DNA of 64,000 nt from an uncultured Jannaschia sp. (GTDB lineage: Bacteria; Pseudomonadota; Alphaproteobacteria; Rhodobacterales; Rhodobacteraceae). The notes below the pieces were generated by a model. It did not search any database, was not told the origin of the DNA, and saw only the letters and a list, made by a program, of their open reading frames with translations. Both the position numbers and the translations under genes were made by a program. The DNA lies in contig NZ_CANNEZ010000003.1 in the NCBI RefSeq assembly GCF_947503795.1, forward strand, positions 62,001 to 126,000. Reading direction: 5' to 3'. The number at the start of each line of letters is the position of its first letter. The stretch's first letter is position 1. Below are positions 2,065 through 34,344 of the stretch, in pieces.

Positions 2065-3034
2065 GGGACCGCCCGGTCAGGCCGCCGATGATGCCGCCCC
2101 GGGCGAAAAGGACAACGGCCAGCAGGAGCAGGCCGAGGAAGACCTGCCAGTAGTCGGAGACGCCGCCCAGCCAGTGCTCCAGCGCCACGAAGAGCGCGGC
2201 CCCCGCCACCGGCCCGCAGAGCCGTGCGACGCCGCCGAGAATGACCAGCACGATCAGCTCGCCCGACATCTGCCACGCGAACATCGTCGGCGACACAAAG
2301 CGGTTGAGATCGGCGAAGAGCGCGCCCGCGAGGCCGGTGATCGCCCCGGAGATCACGAAGGCCGTCAGCCTGAGGCGCATCGGGTCGAGCCCGGCCGCGC
2401 GCACCCGCGCCTCGGATTGCCGCGCGGCGCCCAGCGCGAGGCCGAAGCCCGATGCGGTCAGCCGCGCGACGACCCAAAGCGCAAGGAGGAGCACCGCGAG
2501 GCAGAGGCCGAAGAACTGGATCGGGTCGAGCGTGTTCAGCCCCGGGAACCCGTTCCGGACATAGATCGAGAGGCCGTCCTCGCCTCCATATGCCGGCCAG
2601 GAGATCGCGAAATAGTAGAACATCTGCCCGAAGGCCAAGGTGATCATGATGAAATACACGCCCGAGGTCCGGAGCGTGACGAGGCCGATCAGCCAGGCGG
2701 CGAGGGCCGAGACCGACATGGCCACCAGCCAGATGACGGGCATCGAAGTGCTGCCCTCGAAGAGCACGGGCCAGGTCAGGATCGGATCGTAACTCTGGGC
2801 GTGGCTGGCAAGGATCCCCATCGCGTAGCCGCCGATCCCGAAGAACACCGCGTGCCCGAGGCTGACCAGCCCGCCGAGGCCCAGCGCGAGGTTCAGCCCA
2901 ACCGCCGCGAGCGCCAGGATCGCGACCCGCGTGGCCAGCGTCACGGTGAAGATCTCGCCCGTGACCCAGGCGATCCCGGCGATCGCCGCCAGCCCGCCGA
3001 GGAGGACCGCGTTCAGCACCCGCTCCGGTATCAT
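2057..3034 (-). CDS. livM: Branched-chain amino acid ABC permease LivM
   Basis: Polytopic inner-membrane permease, 325 residues, with about ten hydrophobic segments. The signature LGLGGLVSLGHAVFFGIGGYA near residues 50-70 is the LivM/LivH family motif, and RTSGVYFIMITLAFGQMFYY is the usual LivM cytoplasmic-loop region. It pairs with LivH to form the channel. The ATG at 3032-3034 overlaps the livH stop (ATGA). The first residues are hydrophobic as expected for a first membrane helix, which supports this start. Confidence 0.93.
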   Translation of the reverse strand: MIPERVLNAVLLGGLAAIAGIAWVTGEIFTVTLATRVAILALAAVGLNLALGLGGLVSLGHAVFFGIGGYAMGILASHAQSYDPILTWPVLFEGSTSMPVIWLVAMSVSALAAWLIGLVTLRTSGVYFIMITLAFGQMFYYFAISWPAYGGEDGLSIYVRNGFPGLNTLDPIQFFGLCLAVLLLALWVVARLTASGFGLALGAARQSEARVRAAGLDPMRLRLTAFVISGAITGLAGALFADLNRFVSPTMFAWQMSGELIVLVILGGVARLCGPVAGAALFVALEHWLGGVSDYWQVFLGLLLLAVVLFARGGIIGGLTGRSHG

Positions 3035-3942
3035 CCGAAAAGACCCCGTGGTCGCCAGAAGAGCACCGCCGCCATCAGCGCGTAGACCGCCATCGACGCG
3101 ACGGCCGACCCCGCCGAGGCCGCCGCCGATCCATCCATCACGAGGCGGAACGCGGCGGGGAGGAGCACGCCTCCCAGCGTGTCGGTCAGCCCCACCAGGA
3201 GCGCGCCGACCAACGCCCCCTCGATCGAGCCGATGCCTCCGATAACGATCACCACGAAGGCGAGGATCAGCACCGGCTCGCCCATGCCGACCTGCACCGA
3301 CTGGATCGCGCCCACCAGCGCCCCCGCCAAGCCCGCGAGCGCCGCGCCCAGCGCGAAGACCAGCGTGTAGAGCTTGCCGATATCGACGCCGAGGGCGGCG
3401 ATCATCTCGCGGTCGGCCTCACCCGCGCGGATGCGTATGCCCAGCCGTGTTCGCCGGATCAGCCAGAAGAGCGCGCCCGCCACCCCGAGGCCCACGGCAA
3501 TCAGGAAGAGGCGGTAGCGCGGGTAGTCGATCCCGCCCGGCAGGCGGATCGGTCCCGACAGCCATGCGGGCGTATCGAGATAGAGCGGGAAGGACCCGAA
3601 GGCCCAGCGCGTGCCCTCCGAGGAGATCAGGATCAGCGCGAAGGTCGCCAGCACCTGGTCGAGATGATCGCGGTCGTAGAGCCTGCGGATGACCACGAGC
3701 TCCACGATCGCCCCCGCCGCCGCGGCCGCCGCGAGCGCCGCCGCCAGCCCCAGCAGGAACGACCCCGTGGCACCCGCGACCAATGCGGCCGCGAAGGCCC
3801 CCACCATGTAGAGCGACCCATGCGCGAGATTGATGAGGCCCATCACCCCGAAGACCAGCGTCAGGCCCGCCGCCATCAGGAACAGCATGACGCCCAGTTG
3901 CAGGCCGTTGAGGACCTGCTCGACCAGAAGGATCGCGCTCAT
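3031..3942 (-). CDS. livH: Branched-chain amino acid ABC permease LivH
   Basis: Permease partner of LivM, 303 residues. The open frame extends further upstream, but that part is the antisense shadow of the LysE gene. The ATG at 3940-3942 overlaps the LysE-family stop as ATGA, and from it the protein starts MSAILLVEQVLNGLQLGVML, the normal LivH N-terminus (a helix beginning with QxxNGLxxG). The family motif GLINLAHGSLYMVGA follows at about residues 35-50. Near the C-terminus VIVIGGIGSIEGALVGAL is the conserved EAA-like loop of this permease class. Confidence 0.92.
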   Translation of the reverse strand: MSAILLVEQVLNGLQLGVMLFLMAAGLTLVFGVMGLINLAHGSLYMVGAFAAALVAGATGSFLLGLAAALAAAAAAGAIVELVVIRRLYDRDHLDQVLATFALILISSEGTRWAFGSFPLYLDTPAWLSGPIRLPGGIDYPRYRLFLIAVGLGVAGALFWLIRRTRLGIRIRAGEADREMIAALGVDIGKLYTLVFALGAALAGLAGALVGAIQSVQVGMGEPVLILAFVVIVIGGIGSIEGALVGALLVGLTDTLGGVLLPAAFRLVMDGSAAASAGSAVASMAVYALMAAVLFWRPRGLFG

Positions 3943-24629: not shown

Positions 24630-25832
24630 ATGGACGCGTTCATCTGCGACGGCATCCGCACCCCGATCGGGCGCTTCGGCGGCGCCCTCGCCGGGATGCG
24701 CGCCGACGACCTCGCGGCGCACCCGATCCGCGCGCTGATGGCGCGGCACCCGTCGCTGGACCCGGCGGAGATCGACGAGGTCATTCTCGGCGCGGCGAAC
24801 CAGGCGGGCGAGGACAATCGCAACGTCGCCCGCATGGCAGCCCTGCTGGCCGGCCTGCCCGATAGCGTGCCCGGCATCACGCTCAACCGGCTCTGCGCCA
24901 GCGGGCTCGACGCGGTGGGCTTCGCCGCGCGGGGTATCAAGGCGGGCGATTACGACCTCTGCATCGCGGGCGGGTCCGAAAGCATGACCCGCGCGCCCTT
25001 CGTTACCGGCAAGGCCGACGGGGCCTGGTCCCGCAAGGTCGAGACCTACGACACCACCATCGGCTGGCGCTTCCCGAACCCGGCGATGCACAAGGCCCAT
25101 GGCACGCATTCGATGCCCGAGACGGCCGACAACGTCGCCGCCGAGCACGGGATCAGCCGCGCGGATCAGGACGCCTTCGCCGCCCGCTCGCAGGCCCGCT
25201 GGGCCGCCGCCCAGGCCGCCGGGATCTTCGCCGAGGAGATCGCGCCGGTCGTCCTGCCCCAGCGGCGCGGCGATCCGGTCGTCTTCGACACCGACGAGCA
25301 TCCGCGCCCGGGAACGGATGCCGCGAAGCTCGCCACGCTTCACGGCGTGAACGGCCCCGATCTGAGCGTGACGGCGGGCAACGCCTCGGGCGTCAATGAC
25401 GGCGCCGCCGCCTTGTTGATCGCGTCGGGCGCGGCGGCAACGGCGCATGGTCTGGCCCCGATGGCGCGCGTCGTGACGATGGCCTCGGCGGGCGTGGCGC
25501 CCCGCGTCATGGGGATCGGCCCGGTCCCCGCGACCGAGAAGGCGCTGGCCCGCGCGGGCCTGACGATCCGCGACATGGACGTGATCGAGCTCAACGAAGC
25601 CTTCGCCGCGCAGGCGCTGGCCGTGACGCGGGCGCTGGGGCTGGCCGATGACGACGCGCGCGTGAACGCCCATGGCGGCGCCATCGCGTTGGGCCATCCG
25701 CTCGGCATGTCGGGCGCGCGCCTTGCACTGACGGCGGCGCGACACCTGCAACGCATCGACGGGCGCTACGCGCTCGTGACGATGTGCGTCGGCGTCGGAC
25801 AGGGCGCCGCGATGATCTTGGAAAGGACCTGA
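24630..25832 (+). CDS. paaJ: 3-oxoadipyl-CoA thiolase
   Basis: 400-residue thiolase that cleaves 3-oxoadipyl-CoA to succinyl-CoA and acetyl-CoA, the last step of phenylacetate degradation (also able to cleave 3-oxo-5,6-dehydrosuberyl-CoA). The acyl-accepting Cys is C89 in [13 protein letters not shown]; the catalytic His is in [14 protein letters not shown] and the second Cys in TMCVGVGQG. The start is supported by GAGGAG before ATG 24630. It is the first gene of the epoxidase operon, 2 nt before paaA. The pcaF-type paralogue of protocatechuate degradation is nearly identical, so context decides the name. Confidence 0.87.
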
Positions 25833-25834
25833 CG

Positions 25835-26812
25835 ATGTATGCCCAGATGGTGACCTCCGAGGCGACGGCCGACGACCCCGAAAAGCTCGCCGCGTTCCAG
25901 GCCCGGATCGACGCGAACGAGAAGATCGAACCGAAGGACTGGATGCCCGAGGGCTATCGCAAGACCCTGATCCGGCAGGTCGGCCAGCACGCCCATTCCG
26001 AGATCGTGGGCCAGCTTCCCGAGGGCAATTGGATCACCCGCGCGCCGACGCTGGAGCGGAAGGCGATCCTGCTGGCCAAGGTGCAGGACGAGGCGGGGCA
26101 CGGGCTCTACCTCTACTGCGCCGCCGAGACGCTGGGCGTCAGCCGCGACGAGCTGACCGAGATGCTGCTGGATGGCCGCATGAAGTATTCGTCGATCTTC
26201 AACTACCCGACACTCAGCTGGGCCGACATGGGCGCGGTCGGGTGGCTGGTCGACGGGGCGGCGATCATGAACCAGGTGCCGCTGCAGCGGACCAGCTACG
26301 GCCCCTATTCCCGCGCCATGATCCGCATCTGCAAGGAGGAGTCCTTCCACCAGCGGCAGGGCTTCGACATCATGGCCAAGATGGCCCGCGGCACCGAGGC
26401 GCAGCGCCGGATGGCGCAGGATGCGCTCGACCGCTTCTGGTATCCGGCGTTGATGATGTTCGGGCCGTCCGACAAGGACAGCGTGCACTCCGCGCAATCC
26501 ATGGCGTGGCGCATCAAGATGAACACCAATGACGAGCTTCGGCAGAAATTCGTCGACCAGACCGTGCCGCAGGCCGAGTGGCTGGGTCTGACGGTGCCCG
26601 ATCCCGATCTCGCATGGAACGAGCAGACGGGGCACTACGACTTCACCGAGCCCGATTGGTCCGAGTTCTACGACGTCCTGAAAGGCAACGGCCCCTGCAA
26701 CACCGAACGGCTAGAGGCCCGGAACAAGGCCTGGGACGACGGCGCATGGGTCCGCGAAGGGATGATGGCCCACGCCGAGAAGCGGCGTGCCGCGAAGGTG
26801 GCGGCGGAATGA
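25835..26812 (+). CDS. paaA: Phenylacetyl-CoA epoxidase catalytic subunit PaaA
   Basis: 325-residue di-iron oxygenase subunit. It inserts oxygen into the ring of phenylacetyl-CoA to give the 1,2-epoxide, in complex with PaaC, PaaB and the reductase PaaE. The carboxylate-bridged iron ligands are visible as DEAGH (E86, H89) and EESFH (E169, H172) in two four-helix pairs, with E56 in HSEIVGQ. The start ATG at 25835 follows GGAAAGGA. It ends ATGA-overlapped with the next gene (26809-26812), which is an unusual neighbour (DUF3291). Confidence 0.93.
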
Positions 26813-27282
26813 ATATCGCGGAACTCAATGTCGGCTATGCCCGCTACGCGCTGGACGACGACCGGATCGCGCCCTTCATGGACAATCTCGACCGGATCAA
26901 TGCGCTCGCCGAACGCAGCCCCGGCTTCGTCTGGCGCATGCAGTCCGACGGCGGCAACGCGACCGATATCTCGGTGCCGGGTGACCCGGACATGATCTCG
27001 AACCTGTCGGTCTGGACCGATGTCGAAAACCTCGGGGCTTACGTCTTCAACACGGTTCACGCCCGGTTCTACGACCGCGGAACCGACTGGTTCGAGACGA
27101 TGACGAAGCCGCATTTCGTGATGTGGCATGTCCCGGATGGTCACCGCCCCACCTTGGTCGAGGCCATGGACCGGCTGGCCCATCTGCGCGCGCACGGGTC
27201 GACGGACCACGCCTTCGGCTGGGACCATGTCGACATGGCCGCCTTCCGGCGCTGCGCCCACGGCGCGGAGGCGGACGCATGA
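26809..27282 (+). CDS. DUF3291 family protein embedded in the paa epoxidase operon
   Basis: 157-residue protein of the DUF3291 family (dimeric alpha/beta-barrel, related to antibiotic biosynthesis monooxygenase-fold proteins). Matching features are [18 protein letters not shown] at the N-terminus, then [30 protein letters not shown], and [22 protein letters not shown]. Such proteins are mostly uncharacterised. It is joined by ATGA overlaps to paaA upstream and paaB downstream, so it is translationally coupled within the epoxidase genes. This argues for a role with the Paa complex, such as shielding or processing an unstable product or assisting assembly. That function is inference; no biochemical data are implied. 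Confidence 0.85.
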
Positions 27283-27617
27283 GCAATCACGCGACCCAGC
27301 CCTATCCCGGAACCGAGACGCCCGAGGGCCGCGCCCGCCGCGAATGGCCGCTCTGGGAGGTGTTCATCCGGGGTCAGCACGGCATGAGCCACCGGCATGT
27401 CGGCTCGCTCCACGCGGCCGATGCCGAGATGGCGATGCACCACGCGCGCGACGTCTACACCCGCCGCCAGGAAGGCGTCAGCATCTGGGTCGTCCCCTCC
27501 GCCGAGATCACGGCGTCGAACCCGTCGAAGAAGGGCCCCATGTTCGATCCGGCCGAGGACAAGACCTACCGCCACCCGACCTTCTTCGACATCCCCGACG
27601 ACGTGGGTGCGATGTGA
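27279..27617 (+). CDS. paaB: Phenylacetyl-CoA epoxidase subunit PaaB
   Basis: 112-residue structural subunit of the epoxidase complex. The family pattern EWPLWEVFIRGQHGMSHRHVGSLHAADAEMAMHHARDVYTRRQEG is intact, as is the C-terminal SKKGPMFDPAEDKTYRHPTFF. PaaB bridges the PaaAC catalytic heterodimers. The start ATG overlaps the DUF3291 stop (ATGA, 27279-27282), and the end overlaps the GTG start of paaC. Confidence 0.93.
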   Translation: MSNHATQPYPGTETPEGRARREWPLWEVFIRGQHGMSHRHVGSLHAADAEMAMHHARDVYTRRQEGVSIWVVPSAEITASNPSKKGPMFDPAEDKTYRHPTFFDIPDDVGAM

Positions 27618-28369
27618 CCGATCCGCATGTCACCTTCCTGTTGCGGATGGGCGACAACGCCCTCGTCCTCGGGCACCGCATCTCGGAATGGTGCGGCACG
27701 GCGCCGGCGCTCGAGGAGGATATCGCGCTGGCAAACACCGCGCTCGACCTGATCGGACAAGCGCGGATGTGGCTGGCGCGCGCGGGCGAGGTCGAGGGGG
27801 CGGATCGCTCCGAGGACGATCTGGCGATGCTGCGCGACGCCTGGGATTTCCGGAACCTCCTACTCGTCGAACAGCCGAACCGCGATTTCGGCCATACGAT
27901 CATGCGCTCCTTCCTCTTCGATCACTGGCACCTCGCGCAGCTTCGCGCGCTGGCCGGATCGCGCGATGCGGCCGTGGCCGCCATCGCGGCGAAAGCGGTC
28001 AAGGAAGGCGCCTACCACGCCGAGCGGATCGCCGGGCTGGTCGTGGGCCTCGGCGACGGCACCGAGGAGAGCCACGCGCGGATGCAGGCGGCACTCGACC
28101 GGCTGTGGCCCTTCGCGGGAGAGATGTTCGCGGATGACGAGGTCGACGCGGCCATGGCGGAGGCCGGGATCGCCCCCCTGCCCTCTTCGCTGCGCGCGGG
28201 ATGGGACGCGGCGATCGGCGCCGTCCTCGCCGACGCCACCCTGACCCGTCCCGAGGACGGTTTCGCCCATGCCGGCGGGCGAACCGGCGCGCGGCATTCC
28301 GAACATCTGGGCCACATGTTGACCCAGATGCAGTGGCTCCAGCGCGCCTATCCGGGGGCCTCGTGGTAA
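27614..28369 (+). CDS. paaC: Phenylacetyl-CoA epoxidase structural subunit PaaC
   Basis: 251-residue ferritin-like subunit that supports PaaA. The start is GTG 27614, giving a GTGA overlap with the paaB stop and the N-terminus MTDPHVTFLLRMGDNALVLGHRISEW. Helical motifs LANTALDLIGQARMWL, FLFDHWHLAQLRAL and KEGAYHAERIAGLV fit PaaC. The iron-ligand set of PaaA is not conserved in the same way, consistent with its structural role. The end TGGTAA at 28364-28369 overlaps the paaD start region. Confidence 0.92.
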   Translation: MTDPHVTFLLRMGDNALVLGHRISEWCGTAPALEEDIALANTALDLIGQARMWLARAGEVEGADRSEDDLAMLRDAWDFRNLLLVEQPNRDFGHTIMRSFLFDHWHLAQLRALAGSRDAAVAAIAAKAVKEGAYHAERIAGLVVGLGDGTEESHARMQAALDRLWPFAGEMFADDEVDAAMAEAGIAPLPSSLRAGWDAAIGAVLADATLTRPEDGFAHAGGRTGARHSEHLGHMLTQMQWLQRAYPGASW

Positions 28370-28893
28370 CCCCGCGCCCCAGCCCCGCCCCCGTGCCCGG
28401 TAGCATGGCCGGGGCGGCGACCGGGCCGGGCAGTCCGACGCCCCGCAGCGATGCCGAACTCTGGGCGCTTCTGACGGGCATCCCGGACCCCGAGATCCCG
28501 GTCCTCTCGATCACCGATCTCGGCATCGTCCGCGGCGCCGCGCTCGACGGAGACCACGCGCGCGTCGAGATCACGCCGACCTATTCCGGCTGTCCGGCCA
28601 CCAGCGCCATCACCCTCGCCATCGACATGGCACTTCGCGGCGCAGGCCTGGAGCCGGACCTGCGGATCCGCCTGGACCCGCCCTGGACGACCGACTGGAT
28701 GACCGACACCGGACGCGAGAAGCTGCGCCGCTACGGCATCGCCCCCCCCTCGCCCGCGGGCGGCCCCGAGGCCTGTCCGCGCTGCGGCAGCGTCGATGTC
28801 ACCCGGGTCAGCCAGTTCGGCTCGACCCCTTGCAAGGCGCAATGGCGCTGCGACGCCTGCCTTGAGCCCTTCGACTACTTCAAGTGCATCTGA
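28363..28893 (+). CDS. paaD: Phenylacetate degradation protein PaaD (assembly/maturation)
   Basis: 176-residue protein from a GTG at 28363 (7-nt overlap with paaC); an ATG at 28405 giving 162 residues is the main alternative. The core is a MIP18/DUF59-like domain (LLTGIPDPEIPVLSITDLGIVRG), which in PaaD is thought to help Fe or Fe-S maturation of the epoxidase system. The C-terminus has a zinc-ribbon-like CPRCGS...CDACLEPFDYFKCI. The stop overlaps the start of paaE by one base (TGATG). The choice between the two starts is uncertain. Confidence 0.88.
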   Translation: MVTPRPSPAPVPGSMAGAATGPGSPTPRSDAELWALLTGIPDPEIPVLSITDLGIVRGAALDGDHARVEITPTYSGCPATSAITLAIDMALRGAGLEPDLRIRLDPPWTTDWMTDTGREKLRRYGIAPPSPAGGPEACPRCGSVDVTRVSQFGSTPCKAQWRCDACLEPFDYFKCI

Positions 28894-29948
28894 TGGCCCG
28901 TTTCCACGACCTCACCGTGACCGATATCCGCAAGACGATCCGCGACGCGGTCGTCGTCACCCTGGACGCGCCCGACGGCTTCGACTGGACCCAGGGCCAG
29001 TACCTGACCTTCCGCCGCGACTTCGACGGCACCGAGCTTCGGCGCAGCTATTCGATCTGCGCCGCTCCCGGCGAGCCGTTGCAGGTCGGGATCAAGCGCG
29101 TCGAGGGCGGTGCCTTCTCGGGCTGGGCCAATACCGAGCTGGCCGTGGGCGACACGGTGCAGGCGATGCCGCCGATGGGGCGGTTTCACGCGGCCATCGC
29201 GCCCGATGCCGAGCGGCATTACCTGCTCTTCGCGGGTGGCTCGGGCATCACGCCGATCCTGTCGATCCTCCGAACTGTGCTGGACCGAGAGCCCGGGTCG
29301 CGGGCGACGCTGATCTACGCCAACCGCGCCGTGAACACGATCATGTTCCGCGACGAGCTGGACGACCTGAAGTCGCGCTATCTCGCGCGACTCGCGGTGG
29401 TCCACATCCTCGAACAGGACGCGCAGGACATCGACCTCTTCACCGGGCGGGTGGACGGCGAGAAATGCGCCGCGCTCTTCCGGCAGTGGGTGGCCATCGA
29501 CACCGTCGATCTCGCCTTCATCTGCGGACCCGAACCGATGATGCTGGCCATCGCGGCGGCGCTGAAGGATCACGGCCTGCCCGAGGACGCGATCCGCTTC
29601 GAACTCTTCGCCAGCGGTCAGCCGGGGCGCGTGGCCCAGCGCCCGAGGGCCGACGTGGCGGCCAAGCCCACCGAAGTCGCGATCACCCTCGAAGGGGCGA
29701 CCGAGACGATCAGCATGGACCGCGACCAGACGATCCTCGAAGCCGCGCTCGCCGCGGGGATCGATGCGCCCTTCGCCTGCAAGGCGGGCGTCTGTTCGAC
29801 CTGCATGTGCCGCGTGACCGAAGGCGAGGTCGAGATGGTGCAGAACCACGCGCTCGAGGATTACGAGGTCGAGGGCGGCTATGTCCTCTCGTGCCAATCC
29901 TACCCGCTGAGCGACCGGATCGCGCTGGAATACTACACCGGACACTAG
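28893..29948 (+). CDS. paaE: Phenylacetyl-CoA epoxidase reductase PaaE
   Basis: 351-residue electron transfer subunit. It carries an FNR-like FAD domain (RRSYSICAAPGEP, flavin site), an NAD(P)H domain (LLFAGGSGITPILSI) and a C-terminal plant-type ferredoxin domain with CKAGVCSTC (C-x4-C-x2-C) and a last Cys in LSCQSYP, binding a [2Fe-2S] cluster. It passes electrons from NADPH to the di-iron centre. Start ATG 28893 follows the paaD stop; a GTG 9 nt upstream is possible. The stop TAG shares CTAG with the convergent paaR stop. Confidence 0.92.
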   Translation: MARFHDLTVTDIRKTIRDAVVVTLDAPDGFDWTQGQYLTFRRDFDGTELRRSYSICAAPGEPLQVGIKRVEGGAFSGWANTELAVGDTVQAMPPMGRFHAAIAPDAERHYLLFAGGSGITPILSILRTVLDREPGSRATLIYANRAVNTIMFRDELDDLKSRYLARLAVVHILEQDAQDIDLFTGRVDGEKCAALFRQWVAIDTVDLAFICGPEPMMLAIAAALKDHGLPEDAIRFELFASGQPGRVAQRPRADVAAKPTEVAITLEGATETISMDRDQTILEAALAAGIDAPFACKAGVCSTCMCRVTEGEVEMVQNHALEDYEVEGGYVLSCQSYPLSDRIALEYYTGH

Positions 29949-30529
29949 GCCCCGATCGCGCCGACCCCGCCGGTCGCGATGTCGGCCACCGTTCCGGCAT
30001 AGGCGATCCGGGCCGCGCGGTCGGCGCCCGGCGACCAGAGGTAGAACCAGTTCACCATGCCGAACACGCTCATGGTGGCGTCCCGCAGCGCGCCGCGATC
30101 GAGGTGCGGCGCCTGCGCGGCGAGGGCACCTGACAGGCGCGCGACCATCTCGCGCTGATACCCCCGAAGGATCGCGGCCTGCGCAGGCGTCACGAGCGTC
30201 ATCGCCTCGGTCTGGATGCGGTGCTCGTCGTCTCGCCCCTCATAGGCCAGGAGAAGGTCGGTCAGCAGGGCGCGCAGCGGGTCGGGGCCCGTCAGGTCGA
30301 CCGCGGCGAAACGGTCGCGCAAGTCCGACAGATGCGCGTCGAGCAGGTCGAACAGAAGCCCGTCCTTGCCCGTGTGGTAGTGATAGAGGTTCGCCTTCGA
30401 GATCCCGCATTCGGCGGCGATCCCCGACATAGAGGCACGCGCGAAGCCGTCGCGGGCGAACACGCGGGCGGCGGCCTTCAGGATCGCGCGGCGCTTGTCG
30501 TCGTGGTCGCGGGCGACGGCGCGCCCCAT
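29945..30529 (-). CDS. paaR: TetR-family regulator of phenylacetate degradation (PaaR type)
   Basis: 194-residue TetR-family protein. The DNA-binding domain is at residues 10-58: KRRAILKAAARVFARDGFARASMSGIAAECGISKANLYHYHTGKDGLLFD, a standard TetR helix-turn-helix with the recognition helix in GISKANLYHY. The rest is a ligand-binding helical domain expected to sense phenylacetyl-CoA in PaaR proteins. The start ATG 30527-30529 overlaps the paaK stop by one nucleotide. Linkage to paaK, paaI and paaZ and the operator at 32277-32288 support the name; effector identity is inferred from the family. Confidence 0.85.
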   Translation of the reverse strand: MGRAVARDHDDKRRAILKAAARVFARDGFARASMSGIAAECGISKANLYHYHTGKDGLLFDLLDAHLSDLRDRFAAVDLTGPDPLRALLTDLLLAYEGRDDEHRIQTEAMTLVTPAQAAILRGYQREMVARLSGALAAQAPHLDRGALRDATMSVFGMVNWFYLWSPGADRAARIAYAGTVADIATGGVGAIGA

Positions 30530-31803
30530 CAGGCGCCCCGGTTGTCGACCACGCGCCGCGCCTTGCCCTGGCTGCGTTCGACCCCGCCGGGGTCCGCGAC
30601 GACCACCGCGCAGGAGATGCCGACCATGTCCTTGATCCCGCGGGTCAGCGCGGCGGCGCAGGTCTCGGCATCGCCACCGGGCGCACATTCGACATGGACG
30701 CGCATGGCGTCCATCGCACCCTCGCGCAGAAGCTCGATCTGGAAATAGGGGGCGAGGCCGGGCACCGCGAGCACCCGCTCCTCGATCTGGGTCGGGAAGA
30801 CGTTGACGCCGCGCAGGATGATCATGTCGTCGCTGCGGCCCGTCACCTTTGCCATCCGCCGGTGGGTGCGCGCCGTGCCGGGCATCAGCGTCGTCAGGTC
30901 GCGCGTGCGGTAGCGGATGACGGGCATCCCCTCCTTCGTGAGCGTGGTGAAGACCAGCTCGCCCTCGCTGCCGTCGGGCAGGACCGTGCCGGTCTCGGGG
31001 TCGACGATCTCGGGCAGGAAGTGATCCTCCCAGATATGCAGCCCGTCCTTCGTCTCGACGCATTCCTGCGCGACACCGGGCCCCATCACTTCCGACAGGC
31101 CGTAGATGTCGACCGCGTCCATGTCGAAGGCGGCCTCGATCTGGGCGCGCATGGCGGGGGTCCAGGGCTCGGCCCCGAAGATGCCGATCTCGATGGGGCA
31201 GGCCTTGGGGTCGAGGCCCTGCCGGTGATATTCCTCGAGAAGGTTCAGCATGTAGCTGGGCGTCACCATGATCGCGCGGGGGCGGAAGTCCTCGATCAGC
31301 TGGACTTGCCGCGCGCTCTGGCCGCCGGACATGGGAATGACCGTCGCCCCCAGCTTTTCGATCCCGTAATGCGCCCCGAGCCCGCCGGTGAAGAGGCCGT
31401 AGCCGTAGGCGTTGTGGACGATGTCGCCCGCGCGCACGCCGGCCGCGCGCAGGCAGCGGGCCACAAGGTCGCCCCACGTCTCGATATCTTGGGCGGTATA
31501 GCCGACGACCGTGGGCTTGCCGGTGGTGCCCGATGACGCGTGGATCCGGGCGATGCGTTCGCGCGGCACGGCAAACATGTCGAACGGATAGGCGCGGCGC
31601 AGGTCGTCCTTCACGGTGAACGGAAAGCGCGCGAGGTCGGCCAGCGTCGTCAGATCGTCCGGGTGCACCCCCGCCGCGTCGAAGGCCGCGCGATAGTGGG
31701 GGACATTGCCGTAGGCATGGACCAGTGTGGCGCGCAGGCGGTCGAGTTGCAGCGCCTCGATCTCGGCACGGGGGGCGGTCTCGATCGGGTCGAGGGGGGT
31801 CAT
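30529..31803 (-). CDS. paaK: Phenylacetate-CoA ligase
   Basis: 424-residue acyl-adenylate enzyme that activates phenylacetate with ATP and CoA, the committed first step. The AMP-binding P-loop SSGTTGKPTVVGYT is at residues 90-103, with NAYGYGLFTGGLGAHYG and IFGAEPWT, and the C-terminal hinge GRSDDMIILRGVNVFPTQIE, all PaaK hallmarks. The conserved catalytic Lys region near the C-terminus reads SQGKARRV. The start ATG 31801-31803 overlaps the paaI stop, and upstream open frame is shadow. Confidence 0.93.
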   Translation of the reverse strand: MTPLDPIETAPRAEIEALQLDRLRATLVHAYGNVPHYRAAFDAAGVHPDDLTTLADLARFPFTVKDDLRRAYPFDMFAVPRERIARIHASSGTTGKPTVVGYTAQDIETWGDLVARCLRAAGVRAGDIVHNAYGYGLFTGGLGAHYGIEKLGATVIPMSGGQSARQVQLIEDFRPRAIMVTPSYMLNLLEEYHRQGLDPKACPIEIGIFGAEPWTPAMRAQIEAAFDMDAVDIYGLSEVMGPGVAQECVETKDGLHIWEDHFLPEIVDPETGTVLPDGSEGELVFTTLTKEGMPVIRYRTRDLTTLMPGTARTHRRMAKVTGRSDDMIILRGVNVFPTQIEERVLAVPGLAPYFQIELLREGAMDAMRVHVECAPGGDAETCAAALTRGIKDMVGISCAVVVADPGGVERSQGKARRVVDNRGA

Positions 31804-32240
31804 GTCGTTTCCTCGAAAAGCTGGCCGGGGATGGCGCGGGACATGCCGCGGAATTCTGCGATCACGTCTCCGTCCGCACGCGTCACGGTCACGTCGTAAA
31901 GGCCCGAGCGCCCCTTGAGCGACACCTCGCGCGCGGTCGCGGTCAGCACGTCCGCGGCACGGCCGGGCGCCAGGAAGCTGACCTGTGCCGCCTGTGCGAC
32001 CGTGGCCTGGTTGCGCGAGTTGCAGGCGAAGGCGAAGGCGCTGTCGGCGAGGCTGAAGATCACCCCTCCATGGCAGGTGCCGTGGCCATTGCAATGATGC
32101 GGCGCCACCGTCATGCGCAGGGTCGCGGCGCCTTCGGATACGGCCACGCGCTCCATTCCGAACCAGGCGGAAGCGGCGTCGCCCTGCCACATGGCGTCTG
32201 CCGCGCGCGCGGCGCGGTCCTCGGCGGTCATCTCGGGCAT
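31800..32240 (-). CDS. paaI: Hydroxyphenylacetyl-CoA/acyl-CoA thioesterase PaaI
   Basis: 146-residue hot-dog fold thioesterase. PaaI releases CoA from stalled intermediates so that CoA is not trapped during phenylacetate breakdown. The motif CNGHGTCHGGVIFSLADSAFAFACN contains the conserved HGG and catalytic Asp region. GGGAGGG lies 6 nt before ATG 32238-32240. It is the first gene of the minus-strand paaIKR group, divergent from paaZ across an 82-nt gap containing a palindromic operator. Confidence 0.9.
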   Translation of the reverse strand: MPEMTAEDRAARAADAMWQGDAASAWFGMERVAVSEGAATLRMTVAPHHCNGHGTCHGGVIFSLADSAFAFACNSRNQATVAQAAQVSFLAPGRAADVLTATAREVSLKGRSGLYDVTVTRADGDVIAEFRGMSRAIPGQLFEETT

Positions 32241-32322: not shown

Positions 32323-34344
32323 ATGTCGCTGCATCGGGTCGAGAGCTTCGCCGCCGGTCGCTGGATCGGTCCCGGCGCGGATGCGCGCACCATCGCGGAT
32401 GCGGCGACGGGCGCGCCCATCGCGCTGACCGGGGACGGGAACGTCGACATCGCAGCGATGCTCGACCACGCGCGCGCCGTAGGCGGCCCCGCGCTGCGCG
32501 AGATGACGTTCCACGACCGCGCCCGCATCCTCAAGGCGTTGGCCCAGCATCTCACGGCCCACAAGGACGCGCTCTACGAGGTCAGTTATGCGACCGGGGC
32601 CACGCGAAAGGACCATGCCTTCGACATCGACGGCGGGATCGGCACGACCTTCGTTTTCGCCTCGAAGGGCCGGCGCGAAATGCCGGACCAGAAGGTCTAT
32701 CTTGATGGCGGACCCGAACAGCTCAGCCGCGACGGCAGCTTCATCGGCCAGCATGTCTGCGTGCCCCTGCGCGGCGCGGCGGTCCAGATCAACGCCTACA
32801 ACTTCCCCGTCTGGGGGATGCTCGAGAAATTCGCGCCCGCCTTCCTGGCAGGGATGCCGTCCATCGTGAAGCCTGCGACGGCGACCTGCTACGTGACCGA
32901 GGCCGCGGTGCGGCTGATGCTCGACTCGGGCCTTTTGCCCGACGGTGCGCTCCAGATGGTCGCGGGGGGCCTTGGCGACATGCTCGACCGGCTGGGTCCA
33001 CAGGATGTCGTAGGCTTCACCGGCTCGGCGGCGACGGCGGCCAAGCTGCGCGGCAATCGCAACCTCCTCGACCGGGGCGTGCGCTTCACGGCCGAACAGG
33101 ACAGCCTCAACGCCTCGATCCTCGGGCCGGATGCCGTTCCGGGCACGCCTGAGTTCGACCTCTTCGTGACCGAGGCCGTGCGCGAGATGACGACCAAGGC
33201 GGGCCAGAAATGCACCGCGATCCGTCGGATCATCGTCCCCGAGGCGCAGATCGACGCGCTGACCGACGCCGTGCGCGCCAAGCTCGACCGCATCGTCACG
33301 GGCGACCCGCGCGACGACGCCACCCGGATGGGCGCGCTGGTCTCCGAAGAGCAGAAGACGGATGTGCTGGACTGCGTCGCCGCGCTCGCCGATGAGACGG
33401 TGCGCGTCACCGCCCCCGACATGGACCGCCCCGGCGGCCTGCTGGCGCCGATCCTTCTGCGCTGCGACGACCCCGACGCCGCCCGCGCCGTCCACGCGCG
33501 CGAGGCGTTCGGCCCGGTCTCGACCGTCATGCCCTGCCGCGATATGGACCACGCGATCGCGCTGGCGAACCGGGGCGGCGGCAGCCTCGTCGCGTCGGTC
33601 ATCACCCACGATCCGGCGGTCGCGCGGCAGGCGACGCTCGGCATGGCGGCGTGGCACGGACGGCTCTATTTCAACGACCGCGACAGCATGGACCAGAGCA
33701 CCGGCCACGGCGCGCCGATGCCGCATATGATCCATGGCGGGCCGGGCCGCGCGGGCGGCGGCGAGGAATTGGGCGGAATCCGCGGCGTGAAGCATTTCAT
33801 GCAGCGCACCGCCGTGCAGGGCAGTCCGACCCATATCGCCGCCATCGCGGGCCGCCATTTCGCCGGTGCGCGCACCCAAGAGGGCCCGGCGCACCCCTTC
33901 CGCCGCAGTTTCGACGCGCTCGACATCGGCGAGACGCTCGAGACCGGCTCGCGCACCGTCACCTCGGACGATATCGCCCATTTCGCCGCATTCACCGGTG
34001 ACACCTTCTATGCCCACATGGATGACGCGGCCGCGGCCCGGAACCCGTTCTTCCCGGGCCGTGTGGCGCATGGCTACCTGCTGCTTTCCTTCGCGGCCGG
34101 CCTCTTCGTCGATCCCGACGAAGGCCCCGTGCTGGCCAATACAGGCCTCGACGCGCTGCGCTTCCAGAAGCCTGTCGCGCCGGGCACCGCGATCCAGGTG
34201 ACCCTGACGGTCAAGGCCAAGACGCCCCGCACCGACGACTACGGCGAGGTCCGTTGGGACGTGACCGTGACCGACGATGCGGGGGACACCGTGGCGACCT
34301 ACGAACTTCTGACGATGGTGGCGCGGGACGGGGCGACCGCCTAG
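32323..34344 (+). CDS. paaZ: Bifunctional ring-opening enzyme PaaZ (oxepin-CoA hydrolase/aldehyde dehydrogenase)
   Basis: 673-residue fusion. The N-terminal aldehyde dehydrogenase domain (about residues 1-515) has the catalytic Cys C297 in TTKAGQKCTAIRR and E258 in RFTAEQDSLN. The C-terminal MaoC-like (R-specific enoyl-CoA hydratase) domain (about 530-673) has FTGDTFYAHMDDAAAARNPFFPGRVAHGYLL, with the catalytic Asp/His region. PaaZ opens the oxepin ring of oxepin-CoA and oxidises the aldehyde to 3-oxo-5,6-dehydrosuberyl-CoA. The start ATG 32323 has GAGGA upstream. It is 10 nt upstream of the paaX gene. Confidence 0.92.
   Translation: MSLHRVESFAAGRWIGPGADARTIADAATGAPIALTGDGNVDIAAMLDHARAVGGPALREMTFHDRARILKALAQHLTAHKDALYEVSYATGATRKDHAFDIDGGIGTTFVFASKGRREMPDQKVYLDGGPEQLSRDGSFIGQHVCVPLRGAAVQINAYNFPVWGMLEKFAPAFLAGMPSIVKPATATCYVTEAAVRLMLDSGLLPDGALQMVAGGLGDMLDRLGPQDVVGFTGSAATAAKLRGNRNLLDRGVRFTAEQDSLNASILGPDAVPGTPEFDLFVTEAVREMTTKAGQKCTAIRRIIVPEAQIDALTDAVRAKLDRIVTGDPRDDATRMGALVSEEQKTDVLDCVAALADETVRVTAPDMDRPGGLLAPILLRCDDPDAARAVHAREAFGPVSTVMPCRDMDHAIALANRGGGSLVASVITHDPAVARQATLGMAAWHGRLYFNDRDSMDQSTGHGAPMPHMIHGGPGRAGGGEELGGIRGVKHFMQRTAVQGSPTHIAAIAGRHFAGARTQEGPAHPFRRSFDALDIGETLETGSRTVTSDDIAHFAAFTGDTFYAHMDDAAAARNPFFPGRVAHGYLLLSFAAGLFVDPDEGPVLANTGLDALRFQKPVAPGTAIQVTLTVKAKTPRTDDYGEVRWDVTVTDDAGDTVATYELLTMVARDGATA

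Follow-up and report, generated by a model that had tools for sequence, protein, structure and literature searches.

Among the closest described systems to the locus studied here is the phenylacetyl-CoA epoxidase encoded by the PaaABCDE operon. PaaB forms the bridge between PaaAC pairs, and PaaD is needed in vivo and has been proposed to act in maturation (PMC4498308). The ring epoxide produced by the enzyme is unstable and rearomatises (PMC7497051), and reverse deoxygenation and the thioesterase PaaI are described as safeguards against the toxic epoxide (PMC4498308). The portions of PMC4498308 and PMC7497051 available to us make no mention of a further component encoded between paaA and paaB. 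In the literature searched, DUF3291 appeared to be unstudied; it was named in an annotation-database table (PMC12828279) that lists it with electron transport, glutathione metabolism, and Fe-S biogenesis, and PF11695 was not named. In some marine bacteria a small uncharacterised gene sits between two genes for the enzyme that initiates phenylacetate ring opening; many of their relatives lack or have lost it.

We analysed such a gene in the window, that is, the whole 64,000-nucleotide stretch of DNA under study. The five epoxidase genes of the canonical operon, as described in PMC4498308, are common to both, and the window also carries paaJ, paaK, paaI, and paaZ. The features are as follows.

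24630..25832, + strand: paaJ/pcaF-type 3-oxoadipyl-CoA thiolase gene, upstream of paaA (NCBIfam)
25835..26812, + strand: paaA, catalytic di-iron subunit (TIGR02156, 518.9 bits)
26809..26812, + strand: ATGA overlap of the paaA stop and the DUF3291 start (sequence; same in 10 of 15 other genomes)
26809..27282, + strand: DUF3291 (PF11695) gene, 157 aa (Pfam match)
27279..27282, + strand: ATGA overlap of the DUF3291 stop and the paaB start (sequence)
27279..27617, + strand: paaB, bridging subunit (TIGR02157)
27614..28369, + strand: paaC, structural subunit (TIGR02158)
28366..28893, + strand: paaD (TIGR02159; start codon uncertain, 28366 or 28405)
28893..29948, + strand: paaE, reductase (TIGR02160, 397.1 bits, under the 420.8 cut-off; start 28893 or 28884)
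30529..31803, - strand: paaK, phenylacetate-CoA ligase (TIGR02155)
31800..32240, - strand: paaI, hydroxyphenylacetyl-CoA thioesterase (TIGR02286)
32323..34344, + strand: paaZ, bifunctional (TIGR02278)

The order paaJ, paaA, DUF3291, paaB to paaE, with ATGA at both ends of the DUF3291 gene, had been proposed in an earlier sequence-only reading and was confirmed from the sequence and the Pfam and NCBIfam matches. Both overlaps are 4 bases long: the DUF3291 ATG at 26809 falls within the paaA stop (TGA 26810-26812), and the DUF3291 TGA (27280-27282) falls within the paaB ATG (27279-27281). The window protein matched PF11695 at 7.4e-51 and 171.9 bits (gathering cut-off 23.5) over model positions 1-137 of 139, and no second Pfam family was matched at 0.01 or at E up to 1. 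Its top NCBIfam match was acylphosphatase, at 18.5 bits far below the cut-off of 113. Among the flanking proteins, the thiolase, PaaA, PaaB, PaaC, and PaaD scored above their NCBIfam cut-offs and PaaE below its own. On the 3' side of the operon lie a TetR-type regulator gene (NCBIfam matches under cut-off), paaK, paaI, paaZ, and a partial, sub-cut-off match to PaaX. The DUF3291 match in the window was the sole one in its genome.

A search for paaA-DUF3291-paaB neighbourhoods had been suggested as a check on the sequence-only reading, and it found the arrangement again: an apparently intact DUF3291 gene occupies the paaA-paaB slot in 15 genomes besides the window's. Scanning contigs, one genome per species, with the window protein yielded six loci, all six with this gene order and 71-80% identity, from Jannaschia, Shimia, Tateyamaria (three), and Sulfitobacter; two of these loci belong to genomes G360 and G167 and were counted once. 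A wider family search detected a DUF3291 match in 151 of 394 genomes and added slot copies in G360, G388, G346, and G283; the best 30 loci were examined, and no linkage rate was derived from that set. The genus search added slot copies in G162, G167, G153, G156, G159, and G161. Across the 15 other genomes, DUF3291 shares the ATGA overlap with paaA in 10, starts at 0 to +5 in four, and follows a 219-base gap in one, so that its start lies -4 to +5 bases from the paaA stop in 14. Because this tight junction repeats in 14 of 15 other genomes, the arrangement is not due to chance. In a survey of the class (385 genomes, with places compared by eye), DUF3291 was found in 27 genomes and paaA in 48 above cut-offs (30 and 92, respectively, at E up to 0.001), and no DUF3291 was linked to paaA except in the window's own genome.

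The same reading had suggested that DUF3291 is a dedicated partner of the epoxidase, with epoxide handling, help in assembly, and product sensing as candidate roles; our results did not support a dedicated partner that the enzyme requires. Among 149 family genomes (one per genus), 57 contained DUF3291 and 74 contained paaA, and the two adjoined in 3 of the 74 (G000, G063, and G144), a count read by eye from places in which contig breaks could conceal more. Of 20 genomes in the window's genus, 10 carried paaA, eight carried DUF3291, and seven carried both, linked, including one decayed copy (G159). This co-occurrence gave a Fisher p of 0.02, uncorrected for phylogeny and with the decayed copy taken as present; three paaA genomes had no detected gene. 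The 10 paa operons of the genus comprised six with an intact DUF3291 gene, one with a decayed gene (G159), one with a remnant (G149), and two with none (G155 and G160), the last two showing no DUF3291 trace and no space between paaA and paaB. Four of the 10 genus operons thus have no intact gene, and relatives of the gene often lie in the complex I operon. A core PaaABCDE component would be expected wherever the epoxidase occurs; with linkage in 3 of 74 family genomes and intact copies in 6 of 10 genus operons, DUF3291 is optional and not a core Paa component. The remaining DUF3291 genome of the genus, G154, has no paaA and carries the gene beside a transketolase-like gene, as judged from its translation without a family search.

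In-place decay of paa-linked DUF3291 was seen in two species of the window's genus (L092 and L154). In the decayed copy of G159 (L092:4814-5278), N7, W69, and H84 are replaced by A, R, and P, and further conserved sites are changed. All that G149 retains of DUF3291 is a short remnant, in a roughly 128-base gap (L154 around 2042-2170).

The slot also accepts other small ORFs. We read 39 paa operons without a DUF3291 gene, a part of those lacking a linked copy that includes G149, G155, and G160: 34 had no insert, three had a VOC-like ORF, one had a membrane-protein-like ORF, and one had the DUF3291 remnant. A small ORF resembling VOC/glyoxalase proteins occupies the slot alone elsewhere in the family (L153, L161, and L165), and in L139 the space between paaA and paaB is taken by an ORF of roughly 110-130 aa that, as judged by eye, is hydrophobic and probably encodes a membrane protein. 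VOC-like ORFs were also observed after DUF3291 at L079:4719-5123 (G167) and L087:4497-4877 (G153). The former matched PF00903 Glyoxalase at 2.3e-8, the latter had no Pfam match at 1e-5, and neither matched NCBIfam at 1e-10.

The history of the insertion was examined with trees of DUF3291 and of PaaABC. In the 83-row DUF3291 tree, whose bootstrap was unsettled, 11 paa rows, including the window and the decayed copy, formed one paa-only clade (99/99); four further paa rows clustered with L095 and one out-of-family row (97/89), and two paa rows stood alone. Five changes were required for the 17 paa-linked rows on this tree. Constraining the 17 rows to one clade was 81 log units worse (AU p = 0.052); with L095 included in the constrained clade, the tree improved by 9.9 units (p = 0.607). 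The AU test thus did not reject a single clade, and one paa origin followed by loss and exchange is at least as good an account. We make no claim that DUF3291 was recruited repeatedly from the nuo lineage. On the PaaABC tree of 56 operons, in which decayed and remnant copies were scored as carriers, the fewest DUF3291 gains and losses numbered eight, and loss, transfer, or both were therefore frequent. G153 offers the clearest case: the window and G153 are 89% identical in PaaA, 89% in PaaB, and 81% in PaaC, and 51% in DUF3291. G153 and G063, which belongs to another genus, share 82% identity in DUF3291 and 87%, 75%, and 66% in PaaA, PaaB, and PaaC. Two diverged DUF3291 lineages thus occupy one slot within the genus, and the copies have been exchanged or differentially lost; the G153 pattern would also arise from an ancient tandem pair whose members were lost differently.

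Within lineages, DUF3291 is under purifying selection, with dN/dS (Nei-Gojobori) of 0.06-0.21 in seven of eight pairs; the eighth (window-L003) was saturated and yielded no estimate. In three pairs spanning the two main paa lineages, dN/dS was 0.49-0.56, so that constraint between lineages is either far weaker or reflects a different history. The idea of a new component of the epoxidase system was thus half right: the gene is real, recurrent, and constrained within lineages, but it is optional.

We compared the protein with other families using a 52-member alignment taken from the 83 tree rows, from which near-duplicates, the decayed L092, the long-branch L113, L051_1096, L012_1399, and others had been dropped. 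N7, N31, G39, W42, W69, H84, W106, G130, and F136 are invariant in these members. N7, W69, and H84 were kept in 15 displayed intact sequences (12 paa-linked) and lost in the decayed copy, a pattern suggestive of an important site. At E up to 1, the 52 members matched 14 Pfam families. PF03992 (ABM) was matched by 12 members, with a best value of 3.7e-4; the others included Monooxy_af470-like (two), haem dehydratase (one), and the unrelated EF-hand_14 (three) and Lactamase_B (two), and other, unrelated families were matched by one to three members each. EthD (PF07110) and muconolactone isomerase (PF02426) were absent from the 14.

The ABM family (antibiotic biosynthesis monooxygenase) forms dimeric alpha+beta barrels, and its profile resembles DUF3291 remotely over DUF3291 residues 17-87; in contrast to ABM, DUF3291 has an extra conserved C-terminal stretch. 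In hhalign, DUF3291 against ABM gave P = 2.4e-4 and a score of 28.0, with an HH-suite probability of only 43%. The best of 60 column shuffles scored 19.4 and the reversed control 10.0, and profile comparisons with PaaA, PaaB, and PaaC gave P of 0.07-0.22. The ABM set consisted of 24 of 30 fetched loci, from the window genome and genomes of its class. DUF3291 is likely, but remotely, related to ABM and the dimeric alpha+beta-barrel families. For the dimeric barrel of the sequence-only reading, support is confined to this remote sequence similarity, and the fold and dimer are putative. AlphaFold2 with a seq­uence alignment of seven members gave a mean pLDDT of 37.5 and no usable model, and a PDB search with the single window protein returned no homologues. 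The top PDB matches of the profile (4.7e-5 and 9.9e-5) were designed TIM barrels, matched through a short stretch that recurs in a four-fold repeat; none of the individual stretches was significant, and we regard these matches as spurious.

A further resemblance concerns the putative active site. The catalytic triad of IsdG-type heme oxygenases is Asn7, Trp67, and His77 (PMC6018153, seen in part), and DUF3291 has an invariant Asn7, an invariant Trp69, and a later invariant His84. The Trp-His spacing is 15 in DUF3291 and 10 in IsdG, placing the DUF3291 His off register by about 5 and weakening an exact IsdG triad. The likeness of Asn7/Trp69/His84 to IsdG is, at this level of sequence comparison, a lead only.

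DUF3291 genes also occur in contexts other than paa. Among the best-scoring 30 loci of the family survey (one genome per genus), 27 had nuoF and/or nuoG within 1.5 kb (21 had both), two were in paa operons, and one had neither. The 83 tree rows, which were picked by score and are not a census, comprised 47 with nuoF and/or nuoG, 17 with paaA/paaB, and 19 with neither. Placement next to nuoF and/or nuoG was seen in many family genomes (L013, L082, L083, and others), sometimes as a tandem pair (L054 and L070), and other small ORFs lie alongside in L082. In L106, from another family, the order is nuoF-DUF3291-nuoG. Outside the family, DUF3291 was found between short-chain dehydrogenase and acyl-CoA dehydrogenase genes in L097 and L098 (Pfam-checked), and the same layout was judged from gene sizes only in L099; L098 also has a thiolase gene nearby, and L099 a thiolase-like one.

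Phage and plasmid origins were considered and set aside. The 50,697 phage records searched contained no match, and a single scan of viral contigs confirmed none. Thirteen plasmid records matched at 1e-5 and 15 at E up to 1, every match being less than 60% identical. Four plasmid regions were opened: no paa gene was present in the three annotated ones, and the Burkholderia region was unannotated. An Erwinia persicina plasmid (L207:1816-4773) carries an unannotated DUF3291 match at 3001-3405 next to a class 1 integrase gene, where the first gene cassette would be expected; a 3-phosphoshikimate 1-carboxyvinyltransferase gene comes after it.

Taken together, we tentatively favour, at somewhat less than even confidence, the reading that DUF3291 is an optional accessory soluble protein, remotely akin to ABM, that is co-translated with the epoxidase and, as a small-molecule enzyme or binding protein, probably acts on a by-product or intermediate of the epoxidase. 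As optional cargo placed precisely between paaA and paaB, the gene would be co-translated with the epoxidase in the cell. The invariant Asn7, Trp69, and His84 point to possible catalysis. The protein would be a small-molecule enzyme or binding protein and not a structural subunit. Its most likely target would be a reactive product of the active epoxidase, such as the ring epoxide or oxepin, a rearomatised product, or a redox by-product, and DUF3291 may then serve as a further safeguard or as a processing enzyme, in either case optional. The ABM kinship is a weakly supported part of this explanation. The nuoF/nuoG placement, which has no link to aromatic catabolism, counts against the reading, as do the high dN/dS between the two main paa lineages and the two genus operons with no trace of the gene.

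A somewhat unlikely alternative, and the one that survives best, is that DUF3291 is a passenger: its role would be a general one, in housekeeping or detoxification, with no connection to phenylacetate, and well-expressed operons such as nuo and paa would be no more than tolerated insertion sites. This agrees with the 27 of 30 best-scoring loci near nuo genes, with the other small ORFs in the paa slot, with the minimum of eight gains or losses on the best PaaABC tree, and with decayed or remnant copies in 2 of 10 genus operons. However, 11 paa rows, one of them decayed, form a paa-only clade with 99/99 support, tight junctions persist across deep divergence, and seven of the eight DUF3291 genomes in the genus carry the gene in the paa operon.

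We consider it less probable still, and on the whole unlikely, that DUF3291 serves multi-subunit NADH-flavin-FeS oxidoreductases generally (complex I and PaaABCE), helping, for example, to assemble them, to handle flavin or iron, or to control damage. The two commonest contexts in the tree are indeed operons of NADH-dependent flavin/Fe-S enzymes, nuoF-DUF3291-nuoG recurs in another family, and the table headings for DUF3291 (PMC12828279) fit such a role. The small protein EthD is likewise required by the multicomponent Eth P450 system, according to the part of PMC7934444 available; EthD offers a works-like analogy only, having no Pfam kinship to DUF3291. Against this, 71 of 74 paaA genomes in the family have no DUF3291 in the operon, a maturation role has already been proposed for PaaD (PMC4498308), and the out-of-family loci lie between dehydrogenase genes of other kinds (two, and a third by gene sizes).

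Two readings bring in PaaG. It is quite improbable that paa-type DUF3291 proteins represent a new ABM-like enzyme of phenylacetate catabolism that takes the ring-1,2-epoxide (or oxepin) leaving PaaA and replaces or by-passes a lost PaaG, with Asn7/Trp69/His84 as its active site and nuo-linked relatives performing related chemistry on another reactive product. Very unlikely, too, is a PaaG surrogate in the stricter sense, isomerising or steering phenylacetyl-CoA ring-1,2-epoxide in clusters that lost paaG. The best PaaG-model match of the window genome reached 288.6 bits against a cut-off of 345, and homologues of that size (275-294 bits) were found in 20 of 20 genus genomes, including paaA-negative ones; only G156 and G160 exceeded the cut-off, and G159 reached 321 bits. 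No paaG was nearby in six of seven operons with DUF3291 versus 6 of 19 without (Fisher p = 0.026), among 26 scored of 41 regions (40 fetched plus the window). Fifteen regions went unscored, namely 13 without paaK/paaI in view (five DUF3291-positive: G388, G346, G063, G144, and G161), G097 (cut at the region end), and G159 (decayed copy); the G149 remnant was counted as lacking DUF3291. The search covered 19-20 kb around paaA, and 64 kb for the window, so outside the genus a distant paaG would be missed. The cut-off may also be too strict, because no control genome exceeded it, including the PaaA-matching Thermus and Deinobacterium. Under phylogenetic control, three independent pairs on supported branches gave a median sign-test p of 1, and G156 has both genes whereas G155 has neither by the model cut-off. 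The tendency of DUF3291-bearing paa operons to lack a nearby paaG is suggestive only.

That DUF3291 is a fifth, structural subunit of PaaABC or a chaperone for its assembly, as the position and overlaps between paaA and paaB might suggest, is highly improbable, given that 71 of 74 family paaA genomes have no linked gene and that window and G153 PaaA and PaaB are 89% identical each versus 51% for DUF3291, unlike a subunit coevolving at an interface.

The optional small-molecule enzyme or binding protein remains our preferred reading. Its function can be tested because the gene is tightly coupled to a well-understood pathway, and the answer would bear on the DUF3291 genes adjacent to nuoF/nuoG in the same family. 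Within PF11695, to which the window protein is a nearly full-length match, nuo rows outnumber paa rows (47 versus 17 of 83), and 11 of the paa rows form their own clade. Compared with the canonical PaaABCDE operon, as far as PMC4498308 was available, the window adds a gene that overlaps both paaA and paaB, in a genome without a clear paaG. The DUF3291 insertion is real and recurrent, and it is a variation on the known paa operon and not a new system.
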